Assembly: GCF_021538615.1 (NCBI RefSeq) | Contig: NZ_JAJHIZ010000003.1 | Location: 3,100,001 to 3,164,000, forward strand | Origin: Niabella agricola | Lineage (GTDB): Bacteria; Bacteroidota; Bacteroidia; Chitinophagales; Chitinophagaceae | Direction of reading: 5' to 3' | Length of the DNA stretch: 64,000 nucleotides | Shown here: positions 4,297 through 6,094 of the stretch, piece by piece | Layout of the letters: each line of letters starts with the position of its first letter | Position numbering within the stretch: the stretch's first letter is position 1 | Translations under genes and position numbers: made by a program | The notes under the pieces: model-generated | What the model was told of the DNA's origin: nothing | The model's database searches: none | Seen by the model: the letters and a program-made list of their open reading frames with translations, nothing else

Positions 4297-4394
4297 CGTC
4301 ATGCCGAGCGCATCCCGCAACAGCGGGAGTAGTCGAGGCATCTCTGTGATACCGGACTGCCCGAAGGGACCTTTCGGCTTCCCTGCCAATGACG
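4297..4394. repeat. Palindromic REP/MITE-like dispersed repeat next to IS110
   Basis: About 98 bp bounded by the short inverted ends CGTCAT (4297) and ATGACG (4394). Inside are further hairpins: CCCGC-AACA-GCGGG and a CCGAAGG/CCTTTCGG palindrome, plus an ATGCCGAGCG...GAGGCAT arrangement. A related sequence in the opposite orientation (GGCATGACG end) occurs at 30717-30785. It carries no open frame. The sequence type resembles the short palindromic repeats scattered between genes in Bacteroidota genomes. Its right end sits 2 bp before the stop codon of the IS110 transposase. Confidence 0.65.
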
Positions 4395-4396
4395 TA

Positions 4397-5719
4397 TTAT
4401 TTAAGCGATTGTATTTCAACGAACTTCATTCCATATTTTAAAGCCATTTTTTGTAAATATTTCTGTTCTCTTTCTTTGAGTTGTTGTTCATACTTATGAA
4501 TGCCTTGCTCTATATATTGAGCTCCTTTTGTTAATAAATTATAGAATGCAGTAGCTATTTTTCTTGCCCCGGCTTTTATTGCTATGCGCGCCTCTTTTCT
4601 ACTCTTTAGTTTCCTGATAAAGGCTCCAATAGCTATATACTTACTATTAAGCAAGGCCTGAGCTACTTCGCGGAAGGTTTGGCCTGCATTGGAGTGATTC
4701 TTCATTTTCGACTTCCTGCTTTTAGAACCGCTCTGGTTATGACCGGGACAAAGACCGCACCAGCTCACAAAATGCTTTACCGTTGGAAACCGGCTCATAT
4801 CTGCCCCCACTTCTCCCAGTAGCTTTAGTAGTGTATAATCAGTGATGCCAGGAATGCAATTGGCATCTACGCCATAAATATTTAGTAATTTCTGGTGCAA
4901 ATCGGTTATCATGGGTTTATGATGCCGTACCGGTTTGGCTTTATACTCACTTGCTACAAACTGTCTACCCTGCTCCAAATCACCTAGCAATGCTTCAATA
5001 CGCTTATCAATACGCAGGAGTTGTTTTTGGTGCACCTTCCAAAGAATTAAATTTTGTTCCAGCAGGAATAACCAACTTTCATTGTAATGCCCTTCAAGTG
5101 CGTTTAAAACCGCATCTGCCTTCTTTTCCCGGATGCTTACATGGCAAAGTGCCAGTAATTTTTCTTTATTACGCTCTCCATTGATGATCGCCTCTATCAT
5201 CCGTATACCGCTGGCACCATTAATTTGACAGATTACTTCTGTGAGTTTAATATTCATTAACTCCAATGCCTTTTGCATCTTATTCACATAGGTACTTCCC
5301 ATACCAATAATATCTTCCCGCTCCCGAATCATCATTCGTAACTCTTTTAACTTGCCGGCAGGAATATAACTCTGGCGCACCAGACCGGCACTAAACATTT
5401 TTTGTATCCAACAGGCATCTTTTACATCTGTCTTTCTACCCTTTACCTGCTTTACTTCTTTGGGATTAACCAGGCATACTTCCATGCCCGCTTCTTCCAG
5501 CATCTGGTGCAGGGCTATCCAGTAAATGCCTGTGGCCTCCATACACACCCGCTGTACACCGTTAGCCCTAAGCTCATCGATACATTGCTTATAGCTGCCC
5601 GTAAAAGTCTCATAACTTTTTACGGTAATCCCATCCCAGCAAACAAAGATCTTTTTTGAGCCAATATCTATGGCGGCTGCATTTGCATTTTGTTGCTCAA
5701 ACTCAATTACCTTTGACAT
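4397..5719 (-). CDS. IS110-family DEDD transposase
   Basis: A 440-residue transposase. The N-terminal RuvC-like DEDD domain shows D18 in AIDIGSKK, E61 in CMEATGIYW, and D98 and D101 in KTDVKDA, the four metal-binding acidic positions of the family. A helical, lysine-rich middle follows (about 110-260), then the C-terminal Transposase_20 domain with the IPGI(T) segment near 288 and the conserved serine-containing region SGSKSRKSKMKNHSNAGQ near 340, which supplies the proposed nucleophilic Ser. The gene looks complete, with no stops or missing catalytic residue, so the element may be active. Known relatives (IS621) act as recombinases guided by an RNA encoded in the element's own non-coding end. 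Confidence 0.93.
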   Translation of the reverse strand: MSKVIEFEQQNANAAAIDIGSKKIFVCWDGITVKSYETFTGSYKQCIDELRANGVQRVCMEATGIYWIALHQMLEEAGMEVCLVNPKEVKQVKGRKTDVKDACWIQKMFSAGLVRQSYIPAGKLKELRMMIREREDIIGMGSTYVNKMQKALELMNIKLTEVICQINGASGIRMIEAIINGERNKEKLLALCHVSIREKKADAVLNALEGHYNESWLFLLEQNLILWKVHQKQLLRIDKRIEALLGDLEQGRQFVASEYKAKPVRHHKPMITDLHQKLLNIYGVDANCIPGITDYTLLKLLGEVGADMSRFPTVKHFVSWCGLCPGHNQSGSKSRKSKMKNHSNAGQTFREVAQALLNSKYIAIGAFIRKLKSRKEARIAIKAGARKIATAFYNLLTKGAQYIEQGIHKYEQQLKEREQKYLQKMALKYGMKFVEIQSLK

Positions 5720-5737
5720 AACTATTATCTTTAAAAG

Positions 5738-5912
5738 TTAGAAAATAGCAGGCTACAGCTCAAAGAGGTTCTGAAAAAAGGCAAGCTGCCAAACGGGAAT
5801 ACTGCCTCAACAGTATCACCAAACAATAATGGACCGTTCTTTGAAGCAAAACTCAGGGACAGGTACTTAGACACTAACCGATGTTACTGCTACACTGCTG
5901 TAGCCTGCTTTA
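5738..5912 (-). ncRNA. Candidate IS110 bridge RNA (structured upstream region)
   Basis: The region upstream of the transposase start holds a long-range inverted repeat: GCAGGCTACAGC at 5748-5759 pairs perfectly with GCTGTAGCCTGC at 5897-5908. A second pair, ATTATCTTT (5724-5732) and AAAGATAAT (5916-5924), extends it outward with unequal gaps. The roughly 137 nt between the arms contain smaller hairpins, for example GGCA/TGCC at 5780-5790 and ACTG/CAGT near 5801-5814. Position (upstream, same strand as transposase), size and structure fit the bridge RNA described for IS621. Family knowledge suggests this assignment; the transcript, its loops and its guides are not proven from sequence, and exact ends are estimates. 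Confidence 0.45.
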
Positions 5913-5964
5913 ATCAAAGATAATCCACGTCATAGACCCCAATAATTTTGATCCGCTAATGGTT

Positions 5965-6094
5965 AACTCAAGGTGACGAATGGGTATTTTGTCATTGCCT
6001 CATCGATTTTGTGCTCACAAATAGAGAACTCAGGGTAACTCAGCGCATGTTTGTCATTCCTCATTCGTGGTGCAGCCTGCCTTACATAGATAAT
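5965..6094. repeat. Degenerate direct repeats flanking the IS110 left end
   Basis: Two diverged copies of a 40-45 bp unit lie 62 bp apart: 5965-6005 and 6027-6067, each with AACTCA(A/G)GGT and TTTGTCATT(G)CCTCAT(T)CG. Directly after them, TGCAGCCTGC followed by ATAGATAAT at 6071-6094 repeats the IS-internal TGTAGCCTGC...AAAGATAAT at 5899-5924 in the same orientation. No open frame of note is present between 5934 and 6161. The stretch may hold decayed repeat units or the remnant of an earlier insertion. Confidence 0.45.

Follow-up and report, generated by a model that had tools for sequence, protein, structure and literature searches.

A predicted bridge RNA with a common closing helix upstream of a long IS110 transposase in Niabella agricola

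The window, by which we mean the whole stretch of 64,000 nucleotides of Niabella agricola DNA that was analyzed, carries an IS110 element, and the best explanation of our results is that positions 5912 to 5743 (minus strand) encode its bridge RNA, a reading to which we give a probability of about 0.9. Judged from sequence comparison, this RNA is very probably a new structural variant of bridge RNA. The evidence computed here consists of helices held by covariation, of matches of the left-target and left-donor guides and, for the family, of a right-target match. A candidate bridge RNA had been proposed for this region in a sequence-only reading; the proposal holds up, with covariation in place and with two predicted guides whose sequences agree, over the elements compared, with the left target flank and with the element's right end.

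The IS110 element and its ends

The element occupies positions 4385..5968 (minus strand). This span includes a single copy of the core, which reads AG (CT on the plus strand), and the other core copy is found at 4383-4384. These ends were fixed because the flanks of four copies diverge there and because an uninterrupted paralogous site (L006) is present in the same genome; they place the true left end at 5966-5968, further out than the end near 5933 presumed in the sequence-only reading. The left end of the element is 247 nt long and the right end 12 nt. In the sense of the transposase the left junction reads CGTCACCTTGAG/TTAACC and the right junction GTCATTGGCAG/target (the slash marks the junction), and the junctions of the four copies and the uninterrupted site have AG alone in common, with no long target duplication, so that the element shows the specific target around a short core that is expected of IS110. 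The genome holds four full copies, the other three being 99.7-99.8% identical to the window copy over ~1.6 kb; a search of the genome_contigs collection gave one distinct locus. The looser target pattern CGTCAYNNNGAGCG occurs at 51 genome sites and its reversed control at 0, and the strict target pattern has one genome site.

The transposase, a DEDD/Ser recombinase of 440 aa (4397..5719, minus strand), was assigned from its open reading frame, domain matches and a motif alignment. It scores above the cut-off for PF01548, PF02371 and NF033542 (the NCBI model "IS110 family RNA-guided transposase"), which confirms the IS110 identity given in the sequence-only reading, and it combines PF01548 and PF02371 with the DEDD motif and conserved serine of that family. 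Its candidate catalytic residues are D18, E61, D98, D101 and S330, of which the E, DxxD and SG were placed by alignment to IS621 and D18 by inspection. A protein with 74% identity is named from Niabella ginsenosidivorans. In the window transposase the C-terminal domain (residues 289-370) also matched the TIGR-Tas endonuclease model weakly, with just 19.9 bits where the cut-off is 100.

Structure of the predicted RNA

The predicted bridge RNA has ~170 nt (5743..5912, minus strand) and is matched at 187.8 bits by R1, the RNA model that we built on the structure of alignment A2, which comprises 8 sequences of 7 element types with transposase identities of 56-100%. Consensus folding of a wider alignment, A1, revealed a closing helix, P1, and a second conserved long-range helix, P2, the latter absent from the sequence-only reading. 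In P1 the 5' strand GCAGGCUACAGC (5897..5908) pairs with the 3' strand GCUGUAGCCUGC (5748..5759). In P2 the 5' strand UCAAAGAACGG (5834..5844, two bases unpaired) pairs with the 3' strand CCUCUUUGA (5760..5768), positions 5844-5838 and 5835-5834 being joined to 5768-5760. The structure also comprises a target-binding loop (5845..5891) with the closing pairs AGCA/UGCU, its apical stem-loop (5861..5875) and the apical stem-loop of the donor loop (5795..5820), all on the minus strand.

Under this structure 93.5% of the cells of A2 are paired, compared with 40-46% once the partners are slid by one to three columns. Changes on both sides of a pair were seen in A2 at 20 of 42 pairs overall, at 8/12 in P1 and at 8/9 in P2; on 36 distinct aligned RNAs they were seen at 41/42 pairs, the latter alignment being fitted to R1 and hence leaning towards the model. 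The check proposed beforehand, covariation among homologues, was therefore passed on A2 and also on the model-fitted alignment, and covariation places a predicted structured RNA in the long non-coding end of the element, as is expected of a bridge RNA. Single-sequence thermodynamic folding prefers another fold (-56.9 vs -41.8 kcal/mol for the proposed one), and a search against Rfam gave 0 matches in the window at the gathering score.

Both pairs of inverted arms described in the sequence-only reading are present, and they fared differently. The inner pair, GCAGGCTACAGC (5748-5759) with GCTGTAGCCTGC (5897-5908), is P1 itself; it extends to 13 bp with one more pair, is held by compensatory changes in relatives and lies beyond chance, a perfect inverted repeat of at least 12 bp arising in 2 of 2000 dinucleotide shuffles of 5720-5933. 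The outer pair, ATTATCTTT (5724-5732) with AAAGATAAT (5916-5924), had been taken as part of the same structure and we rejected it as such, since a perfect pair of at least 9 bp arises in 111 of the 2000 shuffles and none of six relatives in A1, which is gappy there, keeps all nine pairs (best 6/9). Its arm at 5916-5924 overlaps TATCTTTG (5922-5915), a promoter-like TAnnTTTG box on the minus strand just upstream of the RNA. We take TATCTTTG to be a match to the -7 box of Bacteroidota, consensus TAnnTTTG. Upstream of such RNAs (33 stretches) the best match to this box averages 4.61 of 6, against 3.99 in shuffles (0/1000), and it is complete in 5 of the 33.

Two predicted guides track the flank and the right end of each element

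Both loops have the same arrangement 3' of the apical stem: a linker of two nucleotides, mostly G plus one base, and then a predicted guide of seven nucleotides. The left-target guide CCCUGAG (5852..5858, minus strand) faces the left-target half and core in the flank, CCTTGAG (5967..5973, minus strand), with 6/7 letters; among the left flanks of the four copies the match is 7/7 in L002 and 6/7 in the window copy, L003 and L004. The left-donor guide UUGGCAG (5786..5792, minus strand) matches the left-donor half and core at the right end of the element, TTGGCAG (4383..4389, minus strand). GCUUC, which follows CCCUGAG and was at first read as the right-target guide, is the 3' strand of the closing pairs of the target loop plus the start of P2, and was discarded.

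The rule was applied to all 25 element types, many of the matches having been seen by eye before the permutation test; as L090 comes without a left region and L109 without a right region, each test covers 24 types. Left-target guides match the left flanks at 152/168 letters, against 121.1 (sd 3.3) with swapped guides, and left-donor guides match the right ends at 156/168, against 134.6 (sd 2.9); 0 of 20,000 permutations reach either score, and the crossed controls were null (12,202 and 2,295 of 20,000 permutations). Where the pattern offered several candidates for a guide, the one at RNA position 35-38 was taken, and, because the pattern failed there, guides were read by eye from the alignment for the target loop of L053, L107, L016, L078 and L023 and for the donor loop of L031 and L034; L092-L094 and L101 lie outside this test. 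The sixth guide nucleotide is A in 24/25 element types for either guide, the exceptions being L082 and L108, whose register is off by one nucleotide and was kept as read.

A window-free scan compared 27 elements over the left flank and 25 over the right end, with 1738 and 1749 window pairs in each orientation and with 400 permutations. Against the left flank the left-target guide ranked first (z 9.8), followed by four pairs on its own diagonal, and against the right end the donor guide ranked first (z 7.3), followed by three pairs on its diagonal; z values up to ~5 elsewhere were taken as relatedness. In a few regions the best guide match lies away from the junction, the case in the window being a target-like repeat in the flank, AACTCAGGG (6027-6035), which is a direct repeat of the stretch at 5850-5858, the complement of the left-target guide.

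The right halves of target and donor

The 5' side of the target loop (5876..5887, minus strand) is the presumed right-target guide. At one fixed register its match was marginal (p 0.05 to 0.12 at the best offset). With a linker of 0-3 nt between guide and stem, brought in together with six added elements after that result and after matches seen by eye, 30 elements scored 4.61 vs 3.90 of 7 when a G-U pair was given half a point (z 5.0, 0/20,000), and 25 elements without close kin gave z 5.2. The match is 7/7 in two elements (of genomes G121 and G191); in the window element it is weak, 4 to 5 of 7 compared with 3.8 with the targets of other elements. A loop that would pair with the target, as in bridge RNAs, is present, strongly so for the left target half and at the level of the family for the right one.

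Tests of the right-target segment against the left end, and of the donor-loop segment against either, gave no signal (p 0.23 to 0.95). In donor pairing, then, the left half is matched by a guide across elements, and a right-half match was not found with the donor-loop segment that was compared across elements; GGUUAG, tried as right-donor guide, had zero signal across elements.

Other explanations of the conserved structure

The predicted RNA has the same sense as the gene and directly precedes it, with the end of P1 28 nt before the start codon, a position equally suited to an untranslated leader that regulates the transposase by attenuation or masking of the ribosome site and contains no guide RNA. 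Such a role would likewise conserve the helices. It would need no tracking of flanking DNA, though, and two unpaired 7-nt segments do track that of each element; we therefore regard a leader in place of a guide RNA as improbable. A regulatory role in addition to guiding would not go against the evidence.

Still less probable is that the inverted repeats act as DNA, without RNA, as transposase binding sites or cruciforms at the element end. Subterminal inverted repeats are known from IS1111 elements (PMC11187229), and the window element has a covarying one too: its right arm ACGTCAT (4389..4395) and left arm ATGACGT (5927..5933), both given on the minus strand, form a repeat of 7 bp whose left arm begins 33 bp inside. 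Among 23 elements such repeats measure 5-10 bp in 22, with the left arm beginning 29-39 bp inside in 22, and the perfect inverted repeat between the ends averages 7.2 bp, compared with 5.3 with ends swapped (0/5000); within a close group of 9 the same test gave 7.3 vs 6.5 bp (35/5000). Both arms of P1, however, lie on one side of the gene, the sequence of P1 changes freely so long as pairing stays, and a role as DNA would leave the matches between guides and DNA unexplained. Chance inverted repeats in a non-coding end, which do fit the behaviour of the outer arms, are very improbable for P1 and P2, both of which pair in diverged relatives and lose their pairing when the partners are slid by one to three columns.

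The RNA in related elements

Searching 394 genomes of the host's family with R1 returned 18 matches in 9 genomes, one of which (G258, E 0.001) is a 64-nt fragment only. Counted over distinct elements with enough upstream DNA and with default filters, R1 matched 9/9 at a transposase identity of at least 50%, most of these being training sequences or close copies; outside the training set it matched 9/9 at 40-50% and 11/14 at 36-40%, and just 4/23 at 30-36%, so that 3/14 and 19/23 were missed in the two lower ranges. Of the three missed at 36-40%, L092 has E 0.022, and L024 reaches 5.5e-5 without filters. A related transposase fragment (70% identity over 132 residues) lies at 582545-582893 of contig 3 of genome G000 (L005, L059), and the R1 search gave no RNA match above it. 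On contig 380 of genome G535 (L044), from a different family within the order, lies an element with 59% identity and the same right-end guide, a distribution suggestive of horizontal spread.

In one genome the guides and the DNA that they would read have changed together. Genome G309 holds two types of element: in type 1 (5 RNA copies) guides and left flanks end in AG, an ending also present at the right end in the 4 copies for which one was seen, and in type 2 (2 copies) the left flanks end in CGAC, the right ends in GGCAC and the guides are UGUCGAC and UUGGCAC. AC thus stands in place of AG at four sites together: the left flank, the right end and both guides.

Plasmids gave 378 records with a distant match, all below 60% identity, and 3 records were taken from 20 among the matches listed. 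In these held-out elements R1 was found upstream of the transposase with filters off, in Nostoc (E 1.3e-9), Caballeronia (5.4e-9) and Bradyrhizobium (0.0084). Their guides, UUAGGAG and UUGAAAG in Nostoc, ACCACAG and UGGAAAG in Caballeronia, and UAAAAAA and UUAGGAA in Bradyrhizobium, have 7/7 matches on both sides, the first of each pair in the left flank and the second at the right end, in three elements from two other phyla; the Bradyrhizobium pair was seen by eye in the match output, and its left guide is a low-complexity run of A. The guides of this element (L113) and of L101 and L092 share such an A run (TAAAAAA), and their left flanks end in an A run. Translated by eye, this flank resembles what we take to be the end of an IS3-type orfA, so that other insertion sequences may be the targets of these elements, as they are for ISEc21.

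Neighbouring copies were also observed. On the Nostoc plasmid pC052_C (L111, 1060-3100) IS110 elements stand in a head-to-tail train, in which the left guide of the middle element, TTAGGAG, equals the right end of the preceding element and the left guide of the next RNA, TTGAAAG, equals the right end of the middle one, as if each element were aimed at the end of the previous one. More neighbouring IS110 pairs occur at L100 and L088 (genome G957) and on contig 1 of genome G672 (2523775-2526652); in G957 the guide CGGAAAG compares with the right end TGGAAAG of the preceding copy, 6/7 letters.

Comparison with IS621, ISEc21 and IS1111

For IS621 we compared the RNA with the descriptions in PMC11208160 and PMC11208158. 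As in IS621, the RNA lies upstream of a DEDD/Ser recombinase and has a target loop and a donor loop, both of them provided with guides and an apical stem-loop. Between the stem-loop and the 3' guide stand two linker nucleotides (GU in IS621), and one core base is nearly invariant, the T of the CT core in IS621 (PMC11208158) and its complement A here. The IS621 layout, in which a 5' stem-loop precedes two separate consecutive loops and the stem-loops have left guides on their 5' and right guides on their 3' side, is absent: here one closing helix spans both loops, the left guides are on the 3' side and the core is AG in the sense of the transposase, which in addition has 440 aa compared with 326 residues in the IS621 domain description. 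The sequence-only reading had supposed a closing-stem layout unlike that of IS621, and the common closing helix and the 3' position of the left guides bear this out. Read on the other strand, the core becomes CT, with the near-invariant A corresponding to the T of IS621 and the 3' guides to its right guides; the RNA would thus work like a bridge RNA, in an element of the IS110 family and outside the IS621 layout.

The seekRNAs were compared through PMC11187229. Like that of ISEc21, the non-coding region is upstream of the transposase, although in ISEc21 the top-strand match is 3' of the bottom-strand match and here the bottom-strand (left-target) match is 3'. The order of the guides is that of the IS1111 members tested there, which have the top-strand match 5' of the bottom-strand match and the RNA downstream of the gene: in our element the left-target guide is 3' and, at the level of the family, the right-target match is 5'. 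Subterminal inverted repeats are shared with IS1111 as well (PMC11187229, PMC11208160). Unlike in IS1111, where the RNA is usually downstream and transposases have 330-350 aa, the RNA here is upstream of a 440-aa transposase, with 12 nt of right end; and the repeats, usually 11-13 bp with extensions of 7 and 3 bp in IS1111 (PMC11187229), here have 7 bp, with the left arm 33 bp inside. An upstream RNA with the guide order of IS1111 is not described in the bridge RNA and seekRNA literature as far as the parts of it drawn on here extend, PMC11208160, PMC11208158, PMC11187229 and PMC11806352 included; a relative may be among the six diverse RNAs shown in PMC11208160, Fig. 6d.

Proposed mechanism and significance

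In the mechanism that we propose, transcription probably starts at a promoter directly before P1 and proceeds towards the transposase gene, and the RNA would form a three-way junction in which P1 encloses the target-binding loop and the donor-binding loop, the latter closed by P2. CCCUGAG would guide to the left half of the genomic target plus the core, UUGGCAG to the left donor half, at the right end of the element, plus the core, and the right target half would pair with the 5' side of the target loop. Through these pairings the recombinase would deliver the circle, once excised, to dispersed CGTCAYNNNGAG/CG repeats and exchange strands at the core AG, which reads CT on the opposite strand. 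Transcription, transposase binding, circle formation and the chemistry are inferred from homology to IS621. Tentatively, the branch of IS110 with long transposases might use a third kind of bridge RNA, upstream, of polarity flipped as in IS1111, with a three-way junction and only three RNA guides, the right donor half going unread by RNA and being replaced by the subterminal repeat, seen by the protein or as a DNA structure; we hold this to be possible rather than probable.

Bridge recombinases are under development as tools for inserting DNA at sites programmed by RNA. The structural rules that we could draw on come from IS621, which has a short transposase. In the long-transposase branch the sequence itself reveals the guide positions, for Bacteroidota and for one case each from Nostoc, Caballeronia and Bradyrhizobium; since the guides are readable, in a different order, this branch should allow predictions, open to test, of element ends, of targets and of the sites to reprogram. 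The guide order found here also bears on the origin of the IS110 and IS1111 layouts.
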